DNA of 38,181 nt from a virus, in IMG/VR virus record IMGVR_UViG_3300033553_000282, positions 1-38,181 of that record. One strand, given 5' to 3'. Below the pieces are notes generated by a model. That model saw only the letters and a program-made list of their open reading frames with translations. It did not search any database and was not told the origin of the DNA. This document shows, piece by piece, positions 1 to 26,781 of this stretch (position 1 is the first letter of the stretch; each line of letters starts with the position of its first letter). A program made the translations under genes and the position numbers.

Positions 1-141
1 CGAAAAAACTGACCGGCCGGCCGGAGCTGCGCCAAGCATTCCGGCTGGCCGCCTTGATGCGATGCCCGGTCGGCGAACTCGGCGAACGGATGACGGCCGA
101 GGAGTTTGGATTGTGGCTCGCCTGGCTGGAAAACGAACCCG
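1..141. repeat. Terminal direct repeat, left copy (contig circularity overlap)
   Basis: These 141 bases are identical to the last 141 bases of the window. The repeat starts and ends inside the tail chaperone coding sequence and not at a packaging or attachment site. A fixed 141-base overlap is what a de Bruijn assembler with k=141 leaves at the ends of a circular contig. I read it as an assembly signature of a circular map, not as a physical terminal repeat. Confidence 0.93.
3..51 (+). promoter_or_regulatory. Programmed -1 ribosomal frameshift signal in the tail chaperone gene
   Basis: The slippery heptamer A AAA AAC lies at 3-9 (also 38043-38049), in the correct phase for the upstream G frame: codons CGA AAA AAC, then the stop TGA. 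Four bases later a strong hairpin can form between 14-24 and 41-51. It has 11 pairs, almost all G-C with one G-U, and a loop of about 16 nt. A heptamer, a short spacer, a stable stem and an immediate zero-frame stop are the classic parts of a -1 frameshift signal. The same strategy is conserved in tail chaperone genes of lambda-like phages (G and GT). Confidence 0.85.
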
Positions 142-335
142 CCGACGCGGCCGTCCTCTGGGCGAGCCTCATGGCGGCGATCGCCAACGGCCCCATGCGC
201 AAGCGCGACAAATCGAATTTTACCGCGGCCGATTTTCTGTCGCCCGAGCGCTGGCAAGCACCCCCCGAGCCGAGCGCGCCGGCCACCCGCGCACAGACCG
301 CGGCGGCGTTGCGCGCGATGTTCAAGCGAGGTTGA
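9..335 (+). CDS. Tail assembly chaperone T extension (expressed as the GT frameshift product)
   Basis: This frame is open from the slippery site and gives 108 residues, which added to the 109 of the upstream frame would make a 217-residue GT fusion. The part just after the shift (LTGRPELRQAFRLAALM) and the following segment with GELGERMTAEEFGLWLAWLENEP look like the conserved T domain of siphovirus tail chaperones, which links the tape measure protein to tail tube subunits during tail assembly. An independent start at TTG 54 or ATG 57 would cut off clearly coding sequence, so frameshift expression is preferred. The stop is four bases before the tape measure ATG. This gene and its upstream partner are split by the contig ends. 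Confidence 0.85.
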   Translation: MTGRPELRQAFRLAALMRCPVGELGERMTAEEFGLWLAWLENEPADAAVLWASLMAAIANGPMRKRDKSNFTAADFLSPERWQAPPEPSAPATRAQTAAALRAMFKRG

Positions 336-338
336 CCC

Positions 339-3113
339 ATGGTGACTAGAAAGGCCAAAGTCGAGATCTCCGCGGTCGACAAGACCAAGGCGGGGATCGA
401 GAGCGCGAAGCGCAACATCGATAGCCTCAAGAACTCCGCGAGCGGCGCGCTCCTGCGCTTTGGTGCGATCGGCGCGGCGATCGGCAGCGCGATCGCCGGC
501 GCCAGCCTCAAAGGCCTCATCGACGCCGGCGACCAGCTCGCCAAGCTCAGCCAAAAAACCGGCATATCCGCCGAGAGCCTTTCCGTTTTGCGCTACGCTG
601 GCCAGCTCGCCGGCGTCGAGGTAGAGGATCTCGCCAAAGGGCTCAACAAGCTCGCCGTAAACATGGCCGACGCCGCACGCGGCGGCAAGGAAACCGGCGC
701 CGCCTTCACCGCCATCGGCGTCAAAGTACAGGCCGCCGGCGGACACTTGCGCAACACCGACGAGGTGCTCGGCGATATCGCCGATCGGTTCGCCAGCTAT
801 GAGGATGGCGCAGAAAAGGCCGCGATCGCCACCGCGCTTTTCGGCAAAAACGGCGCCGCCCTGATCCCGTTTTTGAACCAGGGCCGGCGCGGCCTGGCGG
901 AAATGAAAGAGGAGGCCCAGCGCCTCGGGATCATTTTTTCGGGCGACCTGGCGCGCAAATCCGAGGAATTTAACGACAACCTGACGCGCATGAGCGCGCT
1001 CCTCGATGGCCTGAAAATGTCCATCCTGCCGGGCGTGGTCGAGTGGCTCAACAAAATGGCCGCCGAGCTCCTCGCCGGCCAGGCCGCATTTGGCGGTTTT
1101 GGCCGCGCGCTGGTCGGCCTCGGCCTGGGCACGAGCCCCTTCACCACCTACGGCGAAGGCGCCCGCAACGCGCGCGAGGAAATCGAACGGCTCGAGGCCT
1201 CGATCCGGCGCATCGGGCCCGACAATCCCCTCCTCGCCGGCACCGGATACCCCGAGCAACTCAAATACGCCCAGCAGCGCCTCGCCTACTTTCAAGGCCA
1301 ACAGGAGCGCGAGGCGCTCGCCGCCGGCGCCGGCGTCACCGATACCCGCGGCATCCTGCGCACGCCCCCCAAAGGCAAGGCGCCCCGCATGGCCAGCGCC
1401 AACGCCGGCGGCGAAGCCGATGCGCTGCGCCGCAAGCAATTCGAGGGCGACCTCAAGAAACTGCAGCAGGGCCTCGCCAATGAGCGCGACCTCTTCACTT
1501 TTCACAATTCGCAGCTCAGCCGCCTCTATGCCGAGGGCGAGCTTTCCATCGATAAATACTTCGACGCCCGCGACGCGGCGCAAAAGGAATTTCTCACCAA
1601 GCAAAGCGCATCGATCGACGCCGAAATCGCGTTGCTCGAGAAATACAAAGCCAAGGCGACCAAGGGCGCCGATCGGGAGGATTTTAGCAACCGCATCACC
1701 GAGGCGCTCGTCCGCCAGGCCGTCGCCCACCGCGAGGCCGGCCAGGCCGCCACCGATTCGGAGGCGCAGCGCACCGCCGCGGTGCGCAACTTCATCAGCG
1801 CCGTTTATGAGCTCGACGCCCAGCTCGCCGATATGGCCGGCGACGAATACGGCGCCGCGGTGCTACGCAACGCCCAAAAACTCGCCGACGCCGCTGCTCT
1901 CTTGGCCAAGGGCGGCGGCGATCCGGCACGCCTGGTGGCGCTGCGCGACCTGTTGAACCTGCAGACCGAGCAGGCGCGCGTGCAAACCACGCTCGCCCAA
2001 CTGGCCGAGCGCCAGGCCGTCGCCGAGGAGGCCTACCAGGTGAGCGCGCGCGCGCGCGGCATCGGACTCCTCGAGCAGGAGCGCGCGATCTACATGATGC
2101 GCAGCGCCTCGCTCGAGCAACTCAAGGCGCTCAGCGAACAGGCCGCGGCCCTCGCCGATCGCAGCGCCGACCCGCGCGTGCGCCTATTCGCCGACCAACT
2201 CGCGCTCACGCTGGCCAAAGCGCGCGAGGAAATCGACCCGACCGTGCAACGCTTGAATGCGGCCACCGACCAAGCCGCCGACAACCTCGCGCGCGCCGCC
2301 GAGGATGCGATCATCAATTTCGGCAGCATCCGCGACATTCTGCAGGGCCTCGGCAATGACCTCTTGCGCCTGGGCACGCAGGTACTCGTCACCGACCCGC
2401 TGCGCGAGGCCGCCAAGGGCTATTTTAAAGGCCTCACCGCCCAAACCGGCGCCGCCGATATGCTGCGCGGCGGGCCGGCCGGCCCTGGCGCCGATGCCGT
2501 CAAAACGCTCGCCACCAGCGCCAGCGCCGGCACCGATGCCCTAAAAGGCATGGCCGATTCGCTGGGCATCACCTCTACCGCGCTCGCCGCCATCCCCAGC
2601 GCCGCGGCCACGCCGCTCGCCGCCTCGTTTGCCGCACTCACCGCCGCCGCACAAAGCGCCGCCGCCGCACTCGCCGCGGTGGCCGCTACGGGCGGCGGCG
2701 GCGGCGGCGGCGCCGCCGGCTCGGCCCTCGCCGGAATGTTTAGCGGCGCCTTTTCCAGCAGCGGCGCCGCCAGCTCGGCCCAGGCCGCGGCCCTGCGCGC
2801 GCAATGGTTCCACGATGGCGGCATCGTCGGCGCCGGCGGGCGCTCGGGAATCGTGCCGGCCGGCATTTTCACCGACGCCCCACGCTACCACCGCGGCGGC
2901 CTGGCCGGCGACGAAGTGCCGGCGATCCTGCGCCGCGGCGAAGAAGTGCTCACCGCTGCGGATCCGCGCCACCGCGACAACGCGCCGGCGCGCGGCGGCA
3001 ACGTCTACAACATGAACATCAACGTGCCGCGCGACACGGACCGAATGACCGCCACCCAAATCGCCAACCGCATCGCCGCGCGTGCCGCCTTCGCGTCGCG
3101 CCGCAACGGATAA
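339..3113 (+). CDS. Tail tape measure protein
   Basis: A 924-residue protein directly after the chaperones, which is the invariant siphovirus position for the tape measure protein that sets tail length. The N-terminus is basic and helical, followed by a small hydrophobic, glycine/alanine-rich segment near residues 45-65. Long Ala/Glu/Arg-rich helical stretches fill the middle. The region near residues 690-830 is very low in complexity, with Ala and Gly runs (a GGC repeat at about 2690-2715). The C-terminus carries glycine-rich motifs (FHDGGIVGAGG, RRGEEVLTAADPRH) that are common at the end of prophage tape measures. If the usual figure of about 1.5 angstrom per residue holds, the tail would be about 140 nm long. 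The start ATG lies six bases after a GAGG ribosome-binding site. Confidence 0.93.
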   Translation: MVTRKAKVEISAVDKTKAGIESAKRNIDSLKNSASGALLRFGAIGAAIGSAIAGASLKGLIDAGDQLAKLSQKTGISAESLSVLRYAGQLAGVEVEDLAKGLNKLAVNMADAARGGKETGAAFTAIGVKVQAAGGHLRNTDEVLGDIADRFASYEDGAEKAAIATALFGKNGAALIPFLNQGRRGLAEMKEEAQRLGIIFSGDLARKSEEFNDNLTRMSALLDGLKMSILPGVVEWLNKMAAELLAGQAAFGGFGRALVGLGLGTSPFTTYGEGARNAREEIERLEASIRRIGPDNPLLAGTGYPEQLKYAQQRLAYFQGQQEREALAAGAGVTDTRGILRTPPKGKAPRMASANAGGEADALRRKQFEGDLKKLQQGLANERDLFTFHNSQLSRLYAEGELSIDKYFDARDAAQKEFLTKQSASIDAEIALLEKYKAKATKGADREDFSNRITEALVRQAVAHREAGQAATDSEAQRTAAVRNFISAVYELDAQLADMAGDEYGAAVLRNAQKLADAAALLAKGGGDPARLVALRDLLNLQTEQARVQTTLAQLAERQAVAEEAYQVSARARGIGLLEQERAIYMMRSASLEQLKALSEQAAALADRSADPRVRLFADQLALTLAKAREEIDPTVQRLNAATDQAADNLARAAEDAIINFGSIRDILQGLGNDLLRLGTQVLVTDPLREAAKGYFKGLTAQTGAADMLRGGPAGPGADAVKTLATSASAGTDALKGMADSLGITSTALAAIPSAAATPLAASFAALTAAAQSAAAALAAVAATGGGGGGGAAGSALAGMFSGAFSSSGAASSAQAAALRAQWFHDGGIVGAGGRSGIVPAGIFTDAPRYHRGGLAGDEVPAILRRGEEVLTAADPRHRDNAPARGGNVYNMNINVPRDTDRMTATQIANRIAARAAFASRRNG

Positions 3114-3116
3114 GCC

Positions 3117-3758
3117 ATGGCATTCATCGAAAGCCCCCGCTTTCCCGATGACGTCGCCCTCGACGGCATGGAGGGCGGCCCGCGCTACCGCACCGAAATC
3201 GTCGTGGTAGCCGGCGGCGCCGAACAACGCAATATCGCCTGGGCCCTCGACCTGGGCAGTTGGAATTTAGCCACCGGCATCAAAACCCCCTCCAACTTCG
3301 AGGCAGTCCGCGACCTTTTCCACATGGCCCGCGGCCGCGCCCATGGGTTTCGCTTGCGCGATTGGTCGGACTATGGGTGCTCCTACTCCCGCGGAATTAT
3401 CGTGATGCTCAGCACCACCGTCGGCCAGCTCCACAAGCGCCGCGGCTTCGGCGTGTTCGAGGATCGCATCATCACCAAACCCGTCGCCGGCACCGTAACC
3501 GTGCGCCGCACCCGCGCCGGCGTGCCCAGCGATATCAGCGTCACCCTCGACGCCACCACCGGCGGCGTGACGATCGCCGGCCACCAGGCCGGCGACACCT
3601 ACGCCTGGGCCGGCGAATTCGACCGGCCGGTGCGCTTCGACACCGATGAGCTGATGGTGACGCAGACCGGGCCGGCGCGCTACGAGGATGGCCGGCCGCT
3701 GCTCTCCTGCGATTCGCTCCCCCTGGTCGAAATCCGCGTGCCGGGCGCCGTCGCATGA
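3117..3758 (+). CDS. DUF2460 distal tail / baseplate hub protein
   Basis: A 213-residue protein three bases after the tape measure gene. The opening AFIESPRFPDDVALDGMEGGPRYRTEI and the segment with ARGRAHGFRLRDWSDY match the DUF2460 family, which in gene transfer agents and related siphophages is the distal tail protein (Orfg12 position). It would form the hexameric ring joining the tube to the hub. It is followed by the same partners as in those systems: DUF2163, an NlpC/P60 peptidase and a large tip protein. Family assignment is by recognition of the sequence and gene order. Confidence 0.85.
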   Translation: MAFIESPRFPDDVALDGMEGGPRYRTEIVVVAGGAEQRNIAWALDLGSWNLATGIKTPSNFEAVRDLFHMARGRAHGFRLRDWSDYGCSYSRGIIVMLSTTVGQLHKRRGFGVFEDRIITKPVAGTVTVRRTRAGVPSDISVTLDATTGGVTIAGHQAGDTYAWAGEFDRPVRFDTDELMVTQTGPARYEDGRPLLSCDSLPLVEIRVPGAVA

Positions 3759-4864
3759 AGCTCGGCATCTCCGCCTCGCTCGCGGCGCACTACGCCGGCG
3801 AAAGCATCAGCATCACGCAATGCTGGAAGGTCACGCTACGCGACCCCCAGCCGAACGGCACCGTGCTCGGGTTCACCGCGCTCGACCGGGATATCACTTT
3901 CGGCGGCGTGACCTACCTGGCCGCCTCGGGATTCATCCCGCAGAACGTCGAAACGCAAACAAAGCTCGCCGTCGACAATACCCAAGTGATCGGCGTGCTC
4001 GACTCCGCCATCATCACCCATGATGACCTGACCGCGGGCCGCTGGGATTTTGCGCGCGTCGAGCTCCTGCAAGTGAATTGGCAAGACCCGGCCGCCGACG
4101 TCGACATTCTGATGACCGGCAACCTCGGCGAAGTCTCGATCGATGGCAACCAGTACACCGCCGAGCTGCGCGGCCTTACCGCCGCCTATGCACACAACGT
4201 CGGCGAGGTCTACACGATCACGTGCCGCGCGGCGCTCGGTGACGCGCGCTGCGGCGTGAACCTGGCGCCCCTGACCGTCACCGGCACGCTCTCGGCAGTA
4301 TCCGCCGGCGGCCTGGTGCTCAGCGACCCGGCCCGCACCGAACCGGGCCCCATCGGCGGCAAGGCCATCACCAACATCACCCGCGACATGCTCCCACTTG
4401 TCTCGGTCGCCGCGCACGGTTTCGTCGCGCAGCAAATTATCTACATCGCCGGCGTGCTCGGAATGCTCGATATTAATGGCGATAACTACGTCATCGCCAC
4501 CGTTCCCAACGCAAACAGCTTCACGCTCGCCGGCGTCGATACCAGCGACTTCGGCGCCTACACCAGCGGCGGCACCGCAACGCCGCAGGGCGACGCCGGC
4601 TATTTTGACTACGGCATTATGACGATGCTAACCGGCGCCAGCGCCGGGCTCGCGATGGAGGTCAAAGCCTATTCGCCGGCAACGCTTACGCTCCAACTCC
4701 AATTCCCGCGCGGCGTCGCCCCCGGCGACACCTATTCGCTCGTCGCCGGATGCGGCAAGCGCTTCGCCGAGGATTGCGTCGCGCGTCACGCCAATGGCGA
4801 CAACTTTCGAGGCGAGCCGCATCTCCCCGGCATCGATCGATCATTGCGCATAGGAGGCCAGTAA
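3755..4864 (+). CDS. DUF2163 / BR0599-type tail hub protein
   Basis: A 369-residue protein whose ATG overlaps the stop of the DUF2460 gene (ATGA), so translation is probably coupled. The N-terminal part resembles DUF2163. The C-terminal part, from about residue 285, has the BR0599 signature: a GYFDYG start, two cysteines in CGKRFAEDC, and NFRGEPHLPG near the end. It corresponds to Orfg13, the hub protein that seats the peptidase and tip protein. An inserted segment at about residues 205-275 (VAAHGFVAQQIIYIAGVLG and onward) looks like a small accessory beta domain. Confidence 0.85.
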   Translation: MKLGISASLAAHYAGESISITQCWKVTLRDPQPNGTVLGFTALDRDITFGGVTYLAASGFIPQNVETQTKLAVDNTQVIGVLDSAIITHDDLTAGRWDFARVELLQVNWQDPAADVDILMTGNLGEVSIDGNQYTAELRGLTAAYAHNVGEVYTITCRAALGDARCGVNLAPLTVTGTLSAVSAGGLVLSDPARTEPGPIGGKAITNITRDMLPLVSVAAHGFVAQQIIYIAGVLGMLDINGDNYVIATVPNANSFTLAGVDTSDFGAYTSGGTATPQGDAGYFDYGIMTMLTGASAGLAMEVKAYSPATLTLQLQFPRGVAPGDTYSLVAGCGKRFAEDCVARHANGDNFRGEPHLPGIDRSLRIGGQ

Positions 4865-5278
4865 GTGCCAACGCGCGCCGACGTCGTGGCCGCTGCGCGC
4901 TCCTATTTGGGCGTGCGCTGGCACCACCAGGGACGCAATCGCGCCGGGCTGGATTGCGTCGGCCTGGTGGTCGTTGTGGCCCAAGAGCTCGGGCTGAGCA
5001 CCTACGATCCCCAGGACTACGGCCGCACCCCGGATGCTGTGCAAATGCGCGCGCAGCTCGCCGCTCACCTCGACCCGCGCCGCACACCCGCGCCGGGCGA
5101 CGTCATCCTGCTGCGCTATGACCGCTTCCCTCTACATATGGGCATCGCCAGCGAGCTCAACGGCGAGCTGGCGATCGTGCACGCATTCGCAACGATGCGC
5201 CGCGTGGTCGAGCACCGGCTCGATGCCACCTGGCTCGCGCGCGTCGTTTCCGCCCACGCTTTTCGCGGGATCGCATAA
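4865..5278 (+). CDS. NlpC/P60-family tail peptidoglycan hydrolase
   Basis: A 137-residue cysteine peptidase of the NlpC/P60 superfamily. It starts at GTG directly after the TAA of the previous gene. The nucleophile Cys31 sits in LDCVGLV, and likely catalytic or structural histidines are His91 (PLHMGI) and His106 (VHAF). In this gene order (Orfg14) the enzyme is carried in the tail tip and cuts murein peptides during DNA entry. The protein is the usual length for the phage subfamily and has no signal peptide, as expected for a virion component. Confidence 0.88.
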   Translation: MPTRADVVAAARSYLGVRWHHQGRNRAGLDCVGLVVVVAQELGLSTYDPQDYGRTPDAVQMRAQLAAHLDPRRTPAPGDVILLRYDRFPLHMGIASELNGELAIVHAFATMRRVVEHRLDATWLARVVSAHAFRGIA

Positions 5279-8200
5279 TGGCCGAGCTCGCCATCGCTTA
5301 TGCGGGATCGCTGATCGGCGGCGCCGCCATCACCGGAACCGTGATGGGACTCTCGGGCGCCGCTTTCGGCTGGATGGCCGGCTCGATGCTCGGCTCGATC
5401 CTGTTTGCCCCCAAGGCGCCCGACGGCCCGCGCATTTCCGACCTGTCAATTCAAACCAGCACCTACGGGCAACCGATCCCGCGCATTTTCGGAACCGCGC
5501 GCATCGCCGGCAACGTGATATGGGCGACCGACCTGGTGGAGCACGCCGGCGGCGGCGGTAAAAAGGGCGGCACCAGCTATAGCTATACGGTGAGCTTTGC
5601 CGTGGCCCTTTGCGAAGGGCCGATCGTTGGCGTGCGGCGCATTTGGGCCGACGGGAAACTGATTTACGATATCCGCCCCACCAATACCGGCGACCAGCAA
5701 GCCTTCACCGCGCTCGCCATGGTGGTCTATCCCGGCGACGAGGTGCAGGGCGTCGACCCGACCATCGCCGCCCATCAAGGCGACACCCCCGCTTATCGCG
5801 GCCTGGCCTACGTGGTATTCACCGAGCTCGAGCTCACCAAGTACGGCAACCGCATCCCAAACCTCACCTTCGAGGTGGTCACCGCGGGCAGCATGGTTCA
5901 AGAGGTCGACATTGAGCAATATGGGGAGCGCTACACCACGACCGGCGATTTTGTATTCAGCGCCGACATGGACAGCAACGGCTCGCTATGGCTCAACACC
6001 CTCACCGGGCACGCCGACCCCGCTGACGGCGAATTTAATTTTTCGGCCCCAGGCCAGGCGCAAGTACACGTTTACGACCCCGTTGCGCGCCAGCTCAAAC
6101 GCATAATTGGCATTCCGCTCGAAACCGTCGAAGTACAGTACGGCTCGCACAGTTGCTATCCCATCGGCGGCCACGGCATTTGCTACGGTGATGCCTTTTA
6201 CGTCGGGCGAGGCGCCCCCGGCGTGACACGGCTACCTTCGATCCCCTGCGAACCTCCGAGCAACGACTACTGCGGCAACCCGAACCCCTACGCGCACGGC
6301 TACTACTTCAAAGAGCCGGGCACCGCCGAGCCAATCCGCGATAGTGCCTCGAGCGGCCAATTCGAAAACGCTTTTTATTGGCCATCCGTGCCGGTGCGTT
6401 ACGCCGAGGCCCATGTCGCAATGTGCGGCGGAAACGGCCTTTCGGGCGGCTTTGGCGTCGGTTTTCGATTCCCAACCGTCGGGTTTGGTGCAACGCCACA
6501 GCAAGACCGCCCTAACAATCCCTGCGTCTGCCCCGATGATGGGAAGGTGCCCAACTACTTCGATGGCAACTACGTCCGACTGCCATCGTGGGGTTTTCGT
6601 GCCATCGCAACAGGCGAGCATGGCGCCTGGGCCCAAGGCTACGCGGCGGGCGCCGGCGGCTCATTCCTCTCCACGGATGATACAGGTGGGGATGATACAG
6701 GTGGTTTTATCCTTCCCGGTAGCTCGGTCAAGATGCCGGCGGCCTGTTGGGATGACACGCGCGGGCTCATTTGGTCATTTGCCGGCGACTCACAAAATGA
6801 GCTCTATGCCTGGGGCACGGCCGCCGGTTTTGCGTTTCCGGCGGTGCCCGGCACATCCCAGGGAAATAATGTGCGCGGCGTCACCGTCGATAAAACCACC
6901 GGGCATTTGCGCATCATCAAGGGCGGCGGCGCACTCCACACCCCGTCGCTCATCCTGTTCAACCCCGATACGCTCACCGTGCTCGAGGAGGTGACACTCA
7001 CCGGGCTCAGCCTGGCCAATACCACCGGGCGCCTGTTCGATATGCCGGCGCAGCGTCAGGTGGTTTTTGCAAACGGCTATGGCCTGTACTGGATAACCTA
7101 CGGTGCGCACATGGACGCGCGCCCGGCGATCCTCGCCGATATTGTCACCGCACTCTCACTCGACGCCGGGCTCACCACCGCGCAAATCGACGTCACCGAG
7201 CTCACCGATGAGGTGCTCGGCTACGTCGTGCCCCGCCAGGCCCCGACGCGCGCCGCGCTCGAGCCCCTGATGATGGCGTTTTTCTTTGACGCCGTGGAGA
7301 GCGAGGGAAAAATCAAATTCGTTAAGCGCGGCAAACCGCCGGCGCTCACCATCGACGCGGCCGACCTCGGCGCCCATGAGCTCGGCCAGGCCGCGCCGGC
7401 ACTCCTCGGGCTCACGCGCACCGATGAGCTCGATTTGCCCCGTAGCATCAGCATCCGATACATCAACCCCGAGGCCGACTATCAGACCAGCGTGCAAAGC
7501 GCGCGCCGACAAACCGTGCTCGCGCGCGCCGAACTGACCCCCGAAATCCCGGTGGTTCTCCCCGACGCGCACGCCAAGGCCGTCGCCGATATCGGACTCT
7601 ACGCCGCATGGGTCGCACGCACCACCGCCACCTGGTCGACCACGCTGAAATATGCCCGCGTCGAGCCCACCGACGTCGTGACCATCGACGGCAACCTGAT
7701 CCGCGTCACAAAACGCTCGCTACAGCGCAATGTGCTCAGCTTCGAGGGCAGTTTCGACACCGGCCGCATCATCACCGCCGGCGCCGTCGCGGGCAACATC
7801 TACGCGAGCGGCCAGGTGATCGTCACCTATGGGCAATCCCGCCTCAACTTGCTCGACGTCGCGCTCCTCGATGACGCCCACGACACGACCGGATTTTACG
7901 TCGCGGCCGCCGGCCTCACCTCGCCCTGGCCTGGCGCGCAACTCATCCAAAGCACCGACGGCGGCGCCAATTACTCGGCGCTCATCAATATCATCGACCC
8001 GGCCACCCAGGGTTACGCGCACGGCACGCTCGCCGACTTCGCGCAAAACACCTTTGACGAATTCAACACCGTCACCGTTACGCTCACCAGCGGCACGCTC
8101 GAGAGCACCACCGAGCTCGCGGTGCTCAATGGTGCCAACCGCGCCATCCTCGGAATCGAGCTCCTCCAGTTCAAGCGCGCCACGCTCAACATCGATGGCA

Positions 8201-8748
8201 CGTACACCCTCAGCGGGCTTTTGCGCGGGCGCCGCGGTTCACCGACCACCGGGCACGCCGCCGGCGAGCGCTTTGTCCTGGTTTCCGGCGCCATCCTGCC
8301 CCTCACCGCATCCCCCGCCGAAATCGGCCTGGCGCGACTCTATAAAGGCGTCACGCTCGGCGCGAGCTACGCCTCGGCCGATGCGCAAACCTTCACGAAC
8401 CACGCGCGCCGCCTCCTCTGCCTCGCCCCGGTGCACTTGGGCGGCGGGCGCAACAGCGCCGGCGACGTCACGATCCATTGCACGCGCCGCACCCGCCTCG
8501 ATGGCGCCTGGCGCGATGGCGTCGACGCCGGGCTCGGCGAAGCGCTCGAGCAATACGCATTCGACATTGGCAACGATCCGCAAATTTCGGTCGTAATGCG
8601 CACGATCCCCACCACCACGCCGAGCATCGTCTACACCGCGGCGCAACAGGTCGCCGACTTCGGCGGCCTCGAGGCGCCCGTCTATGTGCGCGTCTGCCAA
8701 ATCAACGCGACCACCGGCCGCGGCGATTACGTACTAGGAGCAATTTGA
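5278..8748 (+). CDS. Tail tip / host-specificity protein with a large inserted domain
   Basis: A 1156-residue protein that starts in a TAATG overlap with the peptidase gene. Residues 1-200 and about 615-1156 match the tip protein of gene transfer agents and related phages (Orfg15/gpJ-like). They include a glycine-rich N-terminus (LIGGAAITGTVMGLSGAAFG), the repeated QPIPRIFGTARIAGNVIW-type segment, a tail_3-like domain (APTRAALEPLMMAFFFDAV near residues 655-675), and a C-terminal domain with LSGLLRGRRGSPTTGHAAGE. Between about 203 and 613 lies an unrelated Cys-rich, Tyr/Trp/Gly-rich insertion that reads like a beta-propeller. The insertion has more mixed base and codon use than its flanks. Inside it, at 6673-6710, a 15-bp unit encoding DDTGG is duplicated. 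Confidence 0.88.
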   Translation: MAELAIAYAGSLIGGAAITGTVMGLSGAAFGWMAGSMLGSILFAPKAPDGPRISDLSIQTSTYGQPIPRIFGTARIAGNVIWATDLVEHAGGGGKKGGTSYSYTVSFAVALCEGPIVGVRRIWADGKLIYDIRPTNTGDQQAFTALAMVVYPGDEVQGVDPTIAAHQGDTPAYRGLAYVVFTELELTKYGNRIPNLTFEVVTAGSMVQEVDIEQYGERYTTTGDFVFSADMDSNGSLWLNTLTGHADPADGEFNFSAPGQAQVHVYDPVARQLKRIIGIPLETVEVQYGSHSCYPIGGHGICYGDAFYVGRGAPGVTRLPSIPCEPPSNDYCGNPNPYAHGYYFKEPGTAEPIRDSASSGQFENAFYWPSVPVRYAEAHVAMCGGNGLSGGFGVGFRFPTVGFGATPQQDRPNNPCVCPDDGKVPNYFDGNYVRLPSWGFRAIATGEHGAWAQGYAAGAGGSFLSTDDTGGDDTGGFILPGSSVKMPAACWDDTRGLIWSFAGDSQNELYAWGTAAGFAFPAVPGTSQGNNVRGVTVDKTTGHLRIIKGGGALHTPSLILFNPDTLTVLEEVTLTGLSLANTTGRLFDMPAQRQVVFANGYGLYWITYGAHMDARPAILADIVTALSLDAGLTTAQIDVTELTDEVLGYVVPRQAPTRAALEPLMMAFFFDAVESEGKIKFVKRGKPPALTIDAADLGAHELGQAAPALLGLTRTDELDLPRSISIRYINPEADYQTSVQSARRQTVLARAELTPEIPVVLPDAHAKAVADIGLYAAWVARTTATWSTTLKYARVEPTDVVTIDGNLIRVTKRSLQRNVLSFEGSFDTGRIITAGAVAGNIYASGQVIVTYGQSRLNLLDVALLDDAHDTTGFYVAAAGLTSPWPGAQLIQSTDGGANYSALINIIDPATQGYAHGTLADFAQNTFDEFNTVTVTLTSGTLESTTELAVLNGANRAILGIELLQFKRATLNIDGTYTLSGLLRGRRGSPTTGHAAGERFVLVSGAILPLTASPAEIGLARLYKGVTLGASYASADAQTFTNHARRLLCLAPVHLGGGRNSAGDVTIHCTRRTRLDGAWRDGVDAGLGEALEQYAFDIGNDPQISVVMRTIPTTTPSIVYTAAQQVADFGGLEAPVYVRVCQINATTGRGDYVLGAI

Positions 8749-8749
8749 C

Positions 8750-9655
8750 ATGGCCGGAAGCACCACCATCCTCGACCTGATCGCCACCGCCCAGGCGCAA
8801 AAAGAAGTTACCGCCAACGCGCTTTTCGACGCCACCAGCCCCGCGGCGCTTTTCGGGCGGCGCGCGAGCACCAGCGCGGCGCTCACCTGGGGCTATTACG
8901 GCGGCCCGATGAACGTGAGCGGCACACTCACCCAAATCCCCAGCGCCACCGTCCAGCTCGCCGACGATGCGACCAACTATGTCGAGGTCGACGCCGCCGG
9001 CGCCGTGAGCGCCAATACAACCGCATTCACCGGCGGGAGCACGCCGCTTTATACCGTCATCACCGCCGGCGGCCTGGTGAGCACCTACACCGATTGGCGC
9101 ATCAATATCATCGGCGTCGCGGGCGTCGGCTCGGTCAGCAGCGTCGCCCTCACCGCGCCCGCCGAGTTTACCGTGAGCGGTTCGCCGGTCACGCAAACCG
9201 GCACGCTCGCGCTCACCAAGGCCAACCAGGACGCAAATCTAGTATGGGCCGGCCCGAGCTCGGGCGACGCCGCCGCGCCGGCATTCCGCGCTTTGGTACA
9301 AGCTGATCTACCGCCGCAGCCGTTTGATGCTCCGCTTTTCTTCCCCGGGATCCCGACTGACGCTCAGTTGCTATTGCGCGTGCCGCTGGCGCGGGCGATC
9401 ACTTACCCAGCCAATATGGCGGGAGCTTATGGAACGGCGACCGCCGCCAGCACCGGCACGGTAAGCGTGGACTTCCAGAAGAACGGCGTGACCTTCGCGA
9501 CGGCAACCTTCACCGCGTCCGACACGCCGACGTGGACAACGGCAGGGGGCACGGAGCAGTCATTCGCCGCTGGTGACATTCTCTCGATCTATGCCCCCAG
9601 CACAGCGGACGCGACGCTTGCGGACATGGGCTTCGTGTTCGCTGGCACCCGATAA
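8750..9655 (+). CDS. Tail fibre / adhesin with DUF2793-like N-terminus
   Basis: A 301-residue protein just after the tip gene. The N-terminus (ILDLIATAQAQKEVTANALFDA) resembles the DUF2793-type attachment segment seen in many tail fibres. Residues about 125-185 form the common fibre linker (VSGSPVTQTGTLALTKAN, then GPSSGDAAAPAFRALVQADLPP). The C-terminal domain from about residue 190 is a predicted beta-sandwich (TASDTPTWTTAGGTEQSFAAGD) that could bind receptor. Base composition changes sharply at about 9290, exactly at the linker, which suggests that the C-terminal domain was exchanged by recombination. Confidence 0.75.
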   Translation: MAGSTTILDLIATAQAQKEVTANALFDATSPAALFGRRASTSAALTWGYYGGPMNVSGTLTQIPSATVQLADDATNYVEVDAAGAVSANTTAFTGGSTPLYTVITAGGLVSTYTDWRINIIGVAGVGSVSSVALTAPAEFTVSGSPVTQTGTLALTKANQDANLVWAGPSSGDAAAPAFRALVQADLPPQPFDAPLFFPGIPTDAQLLLRVPLARAITYPANMAGAYGTATAASTGTVSVDFQKNGVTFATATFTASDTPTWTTAGGTEQSFAAGDILSIYAPSTADATLADMGFVFAGTR

Positions 9656-9666
9656 AGGAAAGGCAA

Positions 9667-10704
9667 ATGACACTCTTGTTTATGGAAAGTTTCAAGCACC
9701 ACGTAACCGCCGATCTGAGCAAGAAATGGACGGCCGTGACAACGAACGCGGCTATTTCCGCCGGACTAGGACGACGGGGCGGGGCTTGTTATACAAACTC
9801 ATCGAATCAAGCGGGACTCGCAAAAACTGTGCCGCAGGGCGCGTCGTTTGTCATGGGCATGGCGTTTTACCTAAGTGCTCTGCCCACCATCGCCGCCCGT
9901 TCGATCTTCGCCTTGCTTGATGGCGGAACCTTTCAATGTGACCTTCGTGTGAATCTAGACGGCACACTATCTGTGACCCGATTTGGAACCGTATTAACTG
10001 ACGGGACATCGGTGGGCGCGCTCTCTCTCGCTGCTTGGAACTACATTGAATGGAAGGTCACCATCGCAGATTCAATCAGCGCAGGTTCTTGTGTCGTGAA
10101 AGTAAACGGGGCAACAGTCATCACCGTGGCAACGGGGCAAGACACGAAGAACACAGCAAACGCGTTTGCGAATCAGGTGGGAATCGGCCACTACAATGGC
10201 GCCTCTTCGGGTGGTGGCTCGGTCAGAATTGAAGATTTCTATATCTGCGACCAAAGCGGCAGCGTGAACAATGATTTCCTTGGCGACTGTCGTGTTGATA
10301 TGGTGCTGCCGACTGGCGACGGCACCTATCAGGATTTCACCAAATCAGCGGGTTCTACGCATTACGAACTCGTTGACGAAGCCGCACCGAACACAACGGA
10401 TTACGTCTACTCCACGACTGTCGGCCACCGGGACAGTTTCACAAATCCTGCCCTGCCAACGTTGACCGATCAGAGCATTTTCGGAGTGCAAGTAAACGCC
10501 GCCGTCTCAAAGGACGACGCGGGCGCGCGCAGCGCCGGGGTGATGATCCGCTCGGGAACCACAGACTCAGATGGCGCGGGTGTGGCGCTTTCCACGTCGC
10601 AAGTCTATCTGTCGCAAATCTACGAGACAAACCCTGACGGCGCGGTGCCGTGGACTGAAAGCGCGGTGAACGCCGCCGAAATAGGGGTCAAGGTGACGGC
10701 ATGA
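9667..10704 (+). CDS. Lectin-like tail protein (LamG-type fold predicted)
   Basis: A 345-residue protein with an AAAGG ribosome-binding site before its ATG. The first about 205 residues read like a concanavalin/LamG jelly-roll: alternating beta strands, AWNYIEWKVTI, SCVVKVNGATVITV, and RIEDFYICDQSG at the end. The remaining 140 residues are a second beta-rich domain (DSFTNPALPTLTDQSIFGVQV). Similar proteins sit beside tail fibres in many phages and are thought to bind carbohydrate, but the ligand here is unknown. Codon and base usage is lower in GC than in the upstream tail genes, in keeping with exchange of the adhesin block. Confidence 0.65.
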   Translation: MTLLFMESFKHHVTADLSKKWTAVTTNAAISAGLGRRGGACYTNSSNQAGLAKTVPQGASFVMGMAFYLSALPTIAARSIFALLDGGTFQCDLRVNLDGTLSVTRFGTVLTDGTSVGALSLAAWNYIEWKVTIADSISAGSCVVKVNGATVITVATGQDTKNTANAFANQVGIGHYNGASSGGGSVRIEDFYICDQSGSVNNDFLGDCRVDMVLPTGDGTYQDFTKSAGSTHYELVDEAAPNTTDYVYSTTVGHRDSFTNPALPTLTDQSIFGVQVNAAVSKDDAGARSAGVMIRSGTTDSDGAGVALSTSQVYLSQIYETNPDGAVPWTESAVNAAEIGVKVTA

Positions 10705-22879: not shown

Positions 22880-23281
22880 ATGTCACCAGTTATCAGTCCT
22901 GATCGTCGCCAGCTCACGCTGGAGCTGGAACCGGGGCTCACTCAGCGCTTCCGATGCGCGCGGGACGCGGTCGCCCAGGGAGTCTACCGCCGTGGCCTGA
23001 AATGCACAGCCGCTGACCTCGACATGGCGCCCGGGAATTTGTCCGTAGCGCTGAGTGATGATGGGGTGCGGCACCTGTCCCTCGACGCATTTGAGCGCTA
23101 CCTGCAGGTGTCGGGTGACCTGACGGGGCTCTACTACCTCGTAGAGCGCTACCTCGGTGACCAGGGGGCAGCGCGTGCCGAGGCGCTCGAGCGGGTGCGC
23201 CTGGTCGCCGAGCAGCTCGAAAATCTGCCCGCAATGCTCGCTGCAGCCGGGTTGGCGCTCAAGAAGAAGGGTGTGCGATGA
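22880..23281 (+). CDS. CII-like phage regulatory protein
   Basis: 133 residues. The segment YRRGLKCTAADLDMAPGNLSVALSDDG with the following HLSLDAFERYLQVSGDLTGLYYLVERYL matches the phage CII (CP76-type) family: an N-terminal helix-turn-helix and a helical C-terminus. Proteins of this family lie between cro and the replication genes and affect the choice between lysis and lysogeny. It has a weak GAGAG site before the ATG. Its stop overlaps the next start (ATGA). Confidence 0.75.
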   Translation: MSPVISPDRRQLTLELEPGLTQRFRCARDAVAQGVYRRGLKCTAADLDMAPGNLSVALSDDGVRHLSLDAFERYLQVSGDLTGLYYLVERYLGDQGAARAEALERVRLVAEQLENLPAMLAAAGLALKKKGVR

Positions 23282-23889
23282 CATACACCCCGAGGCGGGG
23301 CAGTACGGCCGCCGTGATGCTCGCTGCGCTTCAGCAAGTCGATAGCATGACCAGCGCGGAGCTGGCGGCAGCAGGCGGGGTGCGCACGAAAGCGATTTAC
23401 GCGTTGATGGCGGGGGCGATCGCGGCCGGCATGGTCGAGAAGACCATGGAGGGCGATCGGGCACGCTTCCGGTGGCGCGGGGATCGATCCGGCTCGTTGC
23501 CGATTCCGCCGGATCTCTCGGCGCTGCCGAATGTGCTCTCGTGGCCGTTTCTGGGCTCTCCGGCCCCGGTCGCTGGCCCTGAATCGGAACGGCCGCCTAC
23601 CGCCCATGAGGATGACTCGTCGGTCGCTTGTGAGTTCGCGATCGCGCTGTGGCACGACGGCGAGCTCGATATCTTTGGAGCCGGCGAGATTGAGCAAAAC
23701 GGCGTGCCGGGTGTGCGCCTGAATTGCGATCAGGTGGCGCAGCTGCGAGGGTTGCTGAATCGGGTTTCCCTAGCGTGCCATCAACACCCGTCCAGCGGCG
23801 TCGGCCCGGGCCTGCCCGAGCTTGTAATGCCCGGATGGTCTCGGCGCGCCGGATCTTTGCCAACGAGAGAAAACGGCCACCAAGAATGA
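23278..23889 (+). CDS. Winged-helix replication-region protein
   Basis: 203 residues, ATGA-coupled on both sides. Residues 1-65 are a winged helix (TAAVMLAALQQVDSMTSAELAAAGGVRTKAIYALM). A proline-rich linker leads to a beta domain (FAIALWHDGELDIFG, then LNCDQVAQLRGLL). Proteins with this layout lie before primase genes in many temperate phages and are probably DNA-binding partners in replication initiation or control. The C-terminus is low in complexity. Confidence 0.7.
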   Translation: MTYTPRRGSTAAVMLAALQQVDSMTSAELAAAGGVRTKAIYALMAGAIAAGMVEKTMEGDRARFRWRGDRSGSLPIPPDLSALPNVLSWPFLGSPAPVAGPESERPPTAHEDDSSVACEFAIALWHDGELDIFGAGEIEQNGVPGVRLNCDQVAQLRGLLNRVSLACHQHPSSGVGPGLPELVMPGWSRRAGSLPTRENGHQE

Positions 23890-26246
23890 CCTCTCGCGGT
23901 AAGCTCGATTTCCGGCAGATCGCTGAGGCCGCACTGTCTGCGGCCGACCGGCTCGTGCCGCGATGGCTCCCAAACGGTCGCCGCAACGGGTACGAGTGGC
24001 AGGCGCCGAACCCGACGCGCGATGATCGCCATGTCGGATCCTTTTCGGTCAACCTGACGACCGGAGCATGGGCGGACTTTGCCATTTCCGACGCCAAGGG
24101 CGGCGACCTGGTCAGCCTCTACGCCTACCTGTTCACGGGCAACGACCAGGGCAAGGCCGCGCGCGAGTTGGCCGACGAGCTGCGCATCCCGATTGAAGCC
24201 TCCCACGCGGAGCAGCCCAAGGGAGGCGTGGCCCCAGAAAAGAAGCCCCGCACGCAATGGGTGCCGGTAGTTCCGGTACCCGATGGCGTGTCAGCGCCAC
24301 CGGCTGAACACTTCAAGCGTGGCGCGCCGGAGCGCGTCTGGACGTACCGCGATCCCACCGGCGCGGTGCTCGGGCACATTTACCGCTTCCGGACCTCGGA
24401 CGGCGGCAAAGAGATCCTGCCGCTGGTGTGGGCGCGGCACAGCGTCACCGGCGTCGAGGATTGGCGCTGGATGCAGTGGACCGTGCCGCGGCCTCTCTAC
24501 GGCCTGGATCGCCTGCGTGACGGGTTCCCGGTGCTCGTGGTCGAGGGCGAGAAGTGTGCCGATGCGGCGCACGAGGCTCTCGCCACCAAGTTCGATGTGA
24601 TCAGCTGGCCCGGGGGCGGCAAGGCGGCCGACAAAGCGGACTGGGCGCCGATCGCGGGGCGCAACGTCATCATCTGGCCCGACTGCGACGCGCAGCGCCC
24701 CAAGGGCGAGCCGGACGGTGCACCGCTGCCGGAGATCGTGCAGCCGGGCACCGTCACCGCGGAGCGCATCGCGGAGATCCTGCACGAGCTCGAGGCGCGC
24801 GTGCGCATCATGCAAATTCCCGCGCCTGGCGAGAAGTCGCCGGGATGGGACGTCGCCGATGCGATCGCCGATGGCGCGACGGTCGACGATCTGCTGGGCA
24901 TGCTCACCAAGCAGCGATCGCCGCGGGGCATCATGCGGAGGGGCTCTGCGCCGCCAACTGCTGCGCACGCAGCGGAGGAAGATGCGCGCTGGGCGGATAA
25001 GCTGCTCGTGCGCCGCGGCGACGTCGTCGCGTGCCTGTCGAACGTGGTGCTGATCCTGTCATCGCACGAGGCCTGGGCGGGCGTGGTCGCTCGGGACGAT
25101 TTCGCGCAGCGCACGGTGAAATTGAAGCCCGTCCCTGGCCAGAATGAGCTCGGTGGCACCGAGTGGGGCGATGTGGACACGTCGCGCTCGATCATCTGGC
25201 TGACACGGCGCTACGGCATGACCCCGTCTGCGGAGATCGTCGACCAGGCAATCGAGCTGGTGGCTGCAGACCGATCGTTTCATCCGGTGCGCACGTACCT
25301 CGAGGCGCTGCCGGCGTGGGACGGCGAGGGTCGCTGCGATCATTGGCTGGCCGACTTCATGGGCGTTGCGCTCACCGAGTACAGCCGTCGCGTGGGGCGC
25401 TGGTTCCTGATCGGCATGATGGCGCGCGTGTGGCACCCGGGCTGCAAGTTCGATTACGCCCTGGTGCTCGAAGGCGGGCAGGGCAAGCGCAAATCGAGCG
25501 CGCTGCGGGTGCTGGCCGGCGAGTGGTTCTCGGATACCGAGTTGGACCTCTCGAACAAGGATTCGATGAGTGCGATCCGGGGCAAGTGGCTGCACGAGTT
25601 TGCCGAGCTGGGGAGTCTCGCGCGGGCCGAGACCTCGCGACAGAAGAGCTTCCTTTCGCGTCAGATCGACGAATTTCGCCCCACTTATGGTCGGCGTGAG
25701 ATTCGGTGCCCGCGGCAGCTGGTGTTCGCGGGCACGACCAACGAGTGGGCGTGGAACAAGGATCTGACCGGCGGCCGGCGCTTCTGGCCGGTCGAGATCA
25801 GCCAGCAGATCGACACCGACGGTCTCGCCGAAGCACGGGATCAACTGTTTGCCGAAGCGCTGCACCGTTGGCGTGCCGGCGAACGGTATTGGCCGAGTGC
25901 CGACGAGCAGCGCGACCTGTTCGATCCGGAGCAACTCAAGCGCGAGGCGGAGGATTCGTTCTTCGATCCGCTGCACGACTGGATCGAGGCCTCGTGGAAA
26001 CCGGAATTCAGCCTGCACGACGCGATGGCCGACGCGCTGAAGCTCGATGCCGGCCGGCAGACGCGCGACGTGGCCACGCGGGTCGGGCTTCTGCTCAAGA
26101 AAATGGGCTGCAGGCGAATCGAACGGCGCAACGGCGTGAGCCGGTTCGTCTATCTGCTGCCCCTGTGGGCGAAGTTTGAGAAGGACAAGGCTCTCCAGTC
26201 CGCGGCAGCGGTGGTCGGGCGCAGTGATGGGGCGATGCCGTTATGA
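23886..26246 (+). CDS. Primase-helicase (Toprim plus VirE-type AAA+ domain)
   Basis: 786 residues from ATG 23886, which overlaps the upstream stop (ATGA); the open frame extends further up but without support. The N-terminal domain (GYEWQAPNPTRDDRHVGSFS, then DLVSLYAYLF) resembles phage primases without an evident zinc finger. A Toprim-like domain follows at about residue 215 (VLVVEGEKCADAA, IIWPDCD). From about residue 460 comes the VirE/PF05272 ATPase: Walker A EGGQGKRKSS near 528, Walker B-like KWLHEFAELGSL near 570, and FAGTTNEWAWNKDLTGGRRF. It should prime and unwind DNA at the phage origin, which probably lies directly downstream. Confidence 0.93.
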   Translation: MTSRGKLDFRQIAEAALSAADRLVPRWLPNGRRNGYEWQAPNPTRDDRHVGSFSVNLTTGAWADFAISDAKGGDLVSLYAYLFTGNDQGKAARELADELRIPIEASHAEQPKGGVAPEKKPRTQWVPVVPVPDGVSAPPAEHFKRGAPERVWTYRDPTGAVLGHIYRFRTSDGGKEILPLVWARHSVTGVEDWRWMQWTVPRPLYGLDRLRDGFPVLVVEGEKCADAAHEALATKFDVISWPGGGKAADKADWAPIAGRNVIIWPDCDAQRPKGEPDGAPLPEIVQPGTVTAERIAEILHELEARVRIMQIPAPGEKSPGWDVADAIADGATVDDLLGMLTKQRSPRGIMRRGSAPPTAAHAAEEDARWADKLLVRRGDVVACLSNVVLILSSHEAWAGVVARDDFAQRTVKLKPVPGQNELGGTEWGDVDTSRSIIWLTRRYGMTPSAEIVDQAIELVAADRSFHPVRTYLEALPAWDGEGRCDHWLADFMGVALTEYSRRVGRWFLIGMMARVWHPGCKFDYALVLEGGQGKRKSSALRVLAGEWFSDTELDLSNKDSMSAIRGKWLHEFAELGSLARAETSRQKSFLSRQIDEFRPTYGRREIRCPRQLVFAGTTNEWAWNKDLTGGRRFWPVEISQQIDTDGLAEARDQLFAEALHRWRAGERYWPSADEQRDLFDPEQLKREAEDSFFDPLHDWIEASWKPEFSLHDAMADALKLDAGRQTRDVATRVGLLLKKMGCRRIERRNGVSRFVYLLPLWAKFEKDKALQSAAAVVGRSDGAMPL

Positions 26247-26286
26247 CCCCGAAAAGCGCCGGCTTCCCGCTGCAGGTTCCATACCT

Positions 26287-26315
26287 CTTCCATACCTTCG
26301 CTCAACGTATGGAAG
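26287..26315. repeat. Hairpin formed by opposed iterons
   Basis: CTTCCATAC at 26287-26295 and GTATGGAAG at 26307-26315 are perfect inverted copies with an 11-nt loop. This is the first of two hairpins at the edges of the iteron array. Confidence 0.7.
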
Positions 26316-26501
26316 GCTGGAACCCGCATGCAGACTGGGGGTTCCATACGTTCCATACGTTCCATACCTCTTTTCCCCCGCGCGTGCGGCGGCGCGGGTG
26401 CGCGCGCACACCCGCGCGTGCGGCTCCGCGCGCGCGCGTATTTTTAACGTCTGGAACGTATGGAAGGTATGGAAGAGCAAGGCCCAGCAAGGCTTTCAGC
26501 C

Positions 26502-26528
26502 TTCCATACGTTGGTCCAACGTATGGAA
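26502..26528. repeat. Perfect 27-bp palindrome in the iteron array
   Basis: The arm TTCCATACGTTGG (26502-26514) and its exact complement (26516-26528) are separated by one base. The palindrome includes two opposed iterons and ends 25 bp before the next gene. It could be a binding site for a dimer, a hairpin or a nick site. Confidence 0.85.
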
Positions 26529-26553
26529 CCAGGTATGGAACCCCGAGGAGATC

Positions 26554-26781
26554 ATGAGCGAAACGACCACCACGAGGCCTCCGGGCTACCTGCGCGACGA
26601 GATGCCGGCCTGCGCCGCGTTCATCGCCTCGCTGCGCGAGGTCTTCGGAGCCGACGAGATCAACCTGTCGATCCGGCTCGGCATGGCCGGAACCCCGAAC
26701 AAGTTCCATGCCATCGAGGGCGGTCGCGAGATCGGCACTCCGTTTGACGGGGCATCGATCCACGCGGCGGTGGCGTCGTGA
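26554..26781 (+). CDS. Small protein after the origin region
   Basis: 75 residues from ATG 26554 with GAGGAG upstream. It contains FIASLREVFGADEINLSIRLGMAGTPNKFHAIEGGREIGTP, a pattern that recurs in small phage proteins beside replication genes. No fold or function is known to me. Its stop overlaps the next start. Confidence 0.7.
   Translation: MSETTTTRPPGYLRDEMPACAAFIASLREVFGADEINLSIRLGMAGTPNKFHAIEGGREIGTPFDGASIHAAVAS

Follow-up and report, generated by a model that had tools for sequence, protein, structure and literature searches.

A probable origin of replication of the initiator-helicase kind, with a conserved mirror-image iteron array and an alternating core, in a temperate tailed phage

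The window (the whole 38,181-bp stretch of DNA analysed here, a viral contig from IMG/VR) carries terminase, portal, tail and integrase genes and therefore comes from a temperate tailed phage. Positions 26277-26540 very probably form the replication origin of this phage, an origin of the self-loading initiator-helicase kind, in which the winged helix of the helicase encoded just upstream would bind 12 iterons and two opposed hexamers would melt the core between them. A sequence-only reading of the same DNA had proposed an iteron origin at this place, and that proposal is now backed by conservation in relatives, by position, by a dyad layout and by the homology of the helicase to SaPI Rep, whose own origin has the corresponding position.

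Organization of the array

The array lies between the stop codon of the helicase gene (26246) and a small ORF (26554), and starts 31 bp past that stop. All exact TTCCATAC/GTATGGAA octamers of the 38,181-bp window (n = 11) fall inside 26277-26540, compared with 0.26 expected by chance in the whole window, and a count of 11 was not attained in any of 100 dinucleotide shuffles. The sequence-only reading had thus been right about the number of octamers, their two orientations and a density above chance. A twelfth site at 26449 is degenerate (GTCTGGAA) and completes a perfect dyad, in which an 81-bp core separates two halves of six sites and 12 of 12 sites are mirror-paired. The steps of the left half (11, 19, 35, 9 and 9 bp) are mirrored in the right half (9, 9, 35, 19 and 12 bp). 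The features discussed below are as follows.

23883-26246, + strand: candidate initiator, a 787-aa TOPRIM primase with VapE (AAA+) helicase and C-terminal winged helix
25962-26162, + strand: C-terminal winged helix (about residues 694-760), the proposed iteron reader, H-H-H-E-E in models
26145-26147, + strand: codon of wing residue F755, which predicts iteron class in relatives
26277-26284, + strand: iteron L1 (TTCCATAC), from the exact octamer count
26288-26295, + strand: iteron L2, exact octamer count
26307-26314, - strand: iteron L3, inverted, exact octamer count
26342-26349, + strand: iteron L4, inner triplet, exact octamer count
26351-26358, + strand: iteron L5, inner triplet, exact octamer count
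26360-26367, + strand: iteron L6, inner triplet, exact octamer count
26368-26448, no strand: 81-bp core of alternating purine and pyrimidine, a proposed melting or B-Z element
26413-26438, + strand: terminator-like hairpin within the core, then TATTTTTA; a possible second role
26449-26456, - strand: degenerate iteron R6 (GTCTGGAA), mirror of L6, a one-mismatch site identified from the sequence
26458-26465, - strand: iteron R5, exact octamer count
26467-26474, - strand: iteron R4, exact octamer count
26502-26509, + strand: iteron R3, inverted, left arm of the 27-bp palindrome, from the palindrome and octamer count
26521-26528, - strand: iteron R2, right arm of the 27-bp palindrome, from the palindrome and octamer count
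26533-26540, - strand: iteron R1, exact octamer count

That the whole array is a single dyad had been missed by the earlier reading, which described two opposed triplets with a 9-bp period. The left triplet is indeed exact (26342, 26351, 26360); in the right one the sites at 26458 and 26467 are exact and the third (26449) is the degenerate site. The perfect 27-bp palindrome that it reported is exact at 26502-26528 (an odd palindrome, 13+1+13) and is the R3/R2 pair. Its remark that octamers with 9-bp steps are unusual was wrong for origins of this kind, because the same unit and step occur in phage P4: in the P4 record, the crr that adjoins the 3' end of the alpha gene is annotated with 8-bp ori type 1 repeats, including two that are 9 bp apart.

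Conservation of the array in relatives

Viral and bacterial contigs supplied relatives of the helicase, which made up 94 distinct loci once exact duplicates were removed; several of these share contigs, and the loci are related, with independence claimed only where a tree was used. Each locus was scanned in 450-bp windows for its best 9-bp motif on either strand, a score of at least 6 being taken as a strong array and 4.5-5.5 as intermediate. The stretch just past the helicase stop held a strong array in 67 of the 94 loci and an intermediate one in 13, and the best other window of the same loci typically scored 3-4. By this same scan 14 of the 94 relatives had no clear array.

The layout is kept across relatives, running from an outer pair through an inverted site, about 35 bp, and a triplet with steps of about 9 bp to the core and then the mirror image. 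The iteron words vary and include TTCCATACC, TTCCACACC, TTCCCAACC, TTCCTAACC and TTCCCAGCC, as well as CGTCCAACC, TGTCCAACC, CGTCCCACC, GTCACAGT, CCCTGCACA and AACCCTGCG. The share of sites with a mirror partner was 0.80 in the relatives, compared with 0.47 when orientations were randomized, and 1.0 in the window. Since 67 of 94 relatives keep both place and layout with different words, the array is neither chance nor coding sequence. An ORF at 26176-26781 does span the array, so the window itself offers an open frame for a reading of the iterons as coding repeats; that reading is nevertheless hardly credible, as no open frame runs through 13 of the 67 arrays in relatives, core lengths are spread over all three classes modulo 3 (so that a preserved coding frame does not hold in relatives), and the symmetry acts across strands. 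A subgroup of the relatives (L085-L088, L029, L034, L069 and L078) carries few iterons only (e.g. 12+, 112-, 121-), perhaps as reduced or diverged origins.

Cultured phages also carry the array. It is found in Marinobacter phage PS3 (iteron GGTCACCCC) and, 381-650 bp downstream of the helicase gene, in Pseudomonas phages Haddon and LPPA36 (TGTCCCAC), with more distant carriers in Bacteroides phage F2 (GGTAAACG) and Paenibacillus phage Bob (CTGCAACA). Direct DNA similarity between the window and cultured phages was confined to short helicase and terminase matches, with none at the array. In Haddon and LPPA36 a small gene lies between the helicase gene and the array (locus L136, 4221-4571), and the origin therefore need not touch the helicase stop codon.

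The genes that accompany the array bear on what it does. Across 66 array-bearing loci the two halves of the helicase were found in 66 and 61 respectively, a relative of the large terminase in 24 and a CII-like gene in six, and the genes downstream of the array differ from one relative to another. Terminase genes start 1.5 kb downstream in the window, as might suit a packaging (cos/pac) or partition site, yet the site tracks the helicase and its wing residue and not the terminase (24/66), which makes such a function most improbable. We likewise consider it very unlikely that the array is an operator or other regulatory region through which a phage transcription factor (the CII-like protein or a 203-aa protein encoded at 23278) controls downstream genes. 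The intergenic position in a co-directional operon and the CII-like gene upstream are what would be expected of an operator, but the 1-kb stretch contains no sigma-70-like promoter, the 203-aa gene (1/66) and the CII-like gene (6/66) are rare beside the helicase halves (66/66 and 61/66), the downstream genes vary, and iteron class follows a residue of the helicase.

The primase-helicase as candidate initiator

The helicase ORF was listed from 23724, and alignment to relatives indicates a start at the ATG at 23883. Its product contains a VapE AAA+ domain (PF05272, E 6.6e-70) and matches PHROG entries for primase/helicase; sequence pattern and PHROG matches identify the N-terminal half as a TOPRIM-type primase. 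SaPI5 PriRep1 was matched both by profile (7pds, E 3.8e-77) and as the top hit of a Foldseek search (E 1e-29). The full-length model has a pLDDT of 82. The C-terminal winged helix modelled alone (pLDDT 90) has the same H-H-H-E-E order as in the full model, and its structural matches are generic winged helices.

Two initiator candidates had been put forward from the sequence, the primase-helicase and the 203-aa protein at 23278. The first is strongly supported by covariation of its C-terminal winged helix with the iterons; the second is unlikely, as it has a relative in only one of 66 array-bearing loci. The covariation was established in 40 loci whose iteron has the form TTCC-NN-ACC (26 with AT, 14 with CA or TA). 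Residue 755, which sits in the second strand of the wing, is Tyr in 14 of 14 loci of the CA/TA class (TTCC-(C/T)A-ACC), and in the AT class (TTCC-AT-ACC) it is Phe in 23, His in two and Ser in one. It is the only one of 787 columns that separates the classes (MI/H 1.00, next best 0.50). On a tree built from helicase residues 1-660, iteron class changes 10 times in all, eight of them on supported branches, and residue 755 changes together with iteron class in 8/8 independent pairs (sign test, p 0.008). All 11 loci fetched later fit the rule, two of which (L171 and L173) are near copies.

Five further loci (L043, L045, L046, L053 and L055) have only the primase half in common with the window protein; their C-terminal half is different and not of the VapE type, and their iterons are wholly different (of CCCTGCACA or AACCCTGCG type) with the layout unchanged. 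These appear to be natural module swaps of initiator and origin together. Given the half-swapped relatives, the covariation at residue 755 and the 11 new loci, the iteron reader and initiator is most likely the winged helix of the primase-helicase itself, a reading that is strongly supported, and the covariation strongly implies that the C-terminal domain would bind the iterons.

The alternating core

The core alternates purine and pyrimidine, and this alternation is firmly established across relatives. The cores have a median length of 81 bp, and in 62 of 67 loci the core contains the longest alternating run found anywhere in the locus, which often spans about 9 kb; these runs have a median of 23 nt and a maximum of 59. 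The letters of the core vary between relatives. A transition/transversion test on the cores was discarded because most of the core pairs could not be reliably aligned. G+C makes up 75% of the window core, compared with 64% of its genome; in place of an AT-rich melting region between the iteron sets there are only short T/A tracts near the core ends (26371-26374 and 26440-26447).

Propensity for Z-DNA was modelled from dinucleotide energies, reportedly those of the Ho et al. table, with a cost for switching phase, taking the 24-bp optimum of each locus; it replaced an earlier score without phase continuity that was dominated by G+C and misleading (28/67). The best Z-DNA-forming 24-mer of the 38-kb window lies at 26398, with an energy of 12.5 compared with 16.9 at the next place outside the core. 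In 64 of the 67 loci, as in all 11 new ones, the optimum of the whole locus falls inside the core, the expectation from length being about 1% per locus; the cores of L110, L112 and L043 lack it. The earlier remark on an alternating CG core that could form Z-DNA thus concerned a real tract, the best Z-former of the window by computed energy, and was weightier than its author knew. In low-GC loci the alternating runs have a G+C content of 0.64, compared with 0.47 for the locus and 0.33 for the rest of the core, and the runs are therefore rich in CG, CA and TG with T/A-rich flanking ends. Runs rich in CG, CA and TG are those that Z-DNA prefers.

The Z optimum of the locus also lies in the intergenic stretch past the helicase in the phages Haddon, LPPA36, PS3, VarioGold and Aval, although the motif search scored no array in VarioGold or Aval. 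Farther away, the array cores of phages of Gram-positive hosts and Bacteroides are AT-rich and contain no more than a short CGCGTATA-like block, three distant loci (L196, L197 and L201) have an array without a Z optimum, and in phage P4 the Z-energy minima lie at neither ori nor crr. Since the distant arrays and P4 are without it, the Z-prone core is a feature of the window's own branch and its near neighbours. VapE phages of Bacteroides, Monoglobales, Paenibacillus and Streptococcus (L142, L143, L144 and L145) combine an AT-rich core, 3' of the VapE gene, with a short alternating CGCGTATA(GG)-like block, which these origins may have in common by ancestry.

The same core contains the terminator-like hairpin at 26413-26438 followed by TATTTTTA, and the pattern gives four overlapping matches compared with 0.6 expected. 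The core might therefore be thought to serve mainly as an intrinsic terminator of transcription behind the helicase gene, with its GC-rich alternation a by-product of a strong hairpin, the more so as a terminator is annotated between alpha and crr in P4. Core hairpin energies are slightly better than those of shuffles that keep the purine/pyrimidine order (mean z -1.1), but z falls below -2 in only nine of 62 cores, the alternation (62/67) is far more regular across loci than the hairpin, and a terminator needs neither purine-pyrimidine alternation nor flanking mirror-image iterons. We therefore regard a chiefly terminating core as improbable, and terminator and origin roles may coexist in it. 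A hairpin or cruciform as the chief feature of the core was also set aside, the excess over shuffles being mild except in L110 and L112. In these two loci (L110 = L035; L112 = L038) the Z-prone tract is lost, and there are perfect core palindromes instead, with hairpin z of -8.0 and -9.5.

A core of 75% G+C, as in the window, is unusual for such an origin. It may owe its make-up to pyrimidine-purine steps that stack weakly, to a B-Z transition induced by negative supercoiling, or to a flexibility that allows the two halves to pair; Z-form or easy melting may be the purpose of the core. More tentatively, and with less than even probability, these phages may represent a class of origin whose DNA-unwinding element is a selected Z-DNA-forming tract of alternating purine and pyrimidine between opposed helicase-loading arrays, in which hexamer assembly or negative supercoiling would drive a B-Z transition that aids duplex opening. 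Zalpha structures appear among the matches of the winged helix (Z 6.0, ranks 21 and 23) amid many generic winged helices, and nothing beyond the generic fold supports its being a Zalpha domain. By eye, its conserved helix TRVGxxLKKxG is without the conserved, Z-DNA-contacting Tyr of Zalpha helix 3.

Proposed mechanism and relationship to known origins

In the mechanism that we propose, the C-terminal winged helix of the upstream-encoded primase-helicase would bind the 12 iterons, with wing residue 755 reading the middle of each site. The mirror-image six-site halves would load two opposed helicase hexamers, which would melt the 81-bp core, where T/A tracts lie on both sides of a conserved alternating tract that is weakly stacked and Z-DNA-prone. 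Priming of both strands would fall to the fused TOPRIM primase. Two opposed hexamers opening the core are to be expected from the homology to SaPI/PICI Rep, and the symmetry of the array suggests that replication would be bidirectional. Against an origin at this place, GC skew in the window shows no turn at 26.4 kb; it is negative over the tail genes (1-10000) and for the most part positive between about 10 and 31 kb, with a cumulative minimum near 10 kb and not at the array.

Origins of this kind are already known from P4 alpha/crr and from the Rep-ori systems of SaPIs and PICIs. Members of the SaPI Rep family use their C-terminal domain to recognise iterons that directly follow the rep gene (PMC7581432). 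In PICI origins an AT-rich region separates two sets of iterons, and these origins can sustain the replication of a plasmid in E. coli (PMC6092414); SaPI origins have been likened to that of SV40 T-antigen (PMC9894130). SaPI/PICI Rep proteins (SaPI5 PriRep1, 7pds; EcCICFT073) share with the window protein a homologous VapE/AAA+ helicase, a fused primase and a C-terminal DNA-binding domain, and their ori likewise lies directly 3' of the gene, with a melting region flanked by two opposed sets of iterons (PMC7581432, PMC6092414). They differ in belonging to satellite islands without most virion genes, whereas the window is from a full tailed phage (terminase, portal, tail, integrase); their core is simply AT-rich, whereas here it is alternating purine-pyrimidine and Z-prone, and the array here is a regular six-plus-six dyad with 9- and 35-bp steps.

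P4 has the same primase-helicase fusion, and its 8-bp iterons likewise occur in both orientations and in some cases at 9-bp steps, but its iteron word is different and its ori and crr are separate and distant, whereas all octamers of the window are in one array. SCCmec Cch2, too, has a C-terminal domain that binds short repeats situated shortly after the gene that encodes it (PMC7581432), but there are three 5-nt repeats, a separate polymerase-type primase and a helicase of another branch. SV40 T-antigen resembles the proposed system in that opposed short sites load two head-to-head AAA+ helicase hexamers, and differs in its unrelated N-terminal origin-binding domain and in belonging to a eukaryotic virus. 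Origins of the RepA/lambda O type have direct repeats of 17-22 bp with helical spacing and an initiator that is not a helicase, in contrast to the 8-9 bp units, 9-bp steps, inverted halves and site-predicting helicase wing residue found here.

What looks new is the presence of a P4/SaPI-type origin design in tailed phages, and a core that is alternating rather than simply AT-rich. A search of the open literature (subscription papers lying outside it) found no description of the array in VapE phages and no paper that connects Z-DNA with iterons and an origin of replication. The PICI design, described as common to no other replicon (PMC6092414), would thus be extended to full phages, and a predicted origin with a named initiator is now located for many environmental and cultured tailed phages. 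The rule linking wing residue to iteron amounts to a simple, testable recognition code and, if the Z-DNA reading is true, the conserved Z-DNA-prone core would be a rare case of left-handed DNA with a testable place and testable partners.
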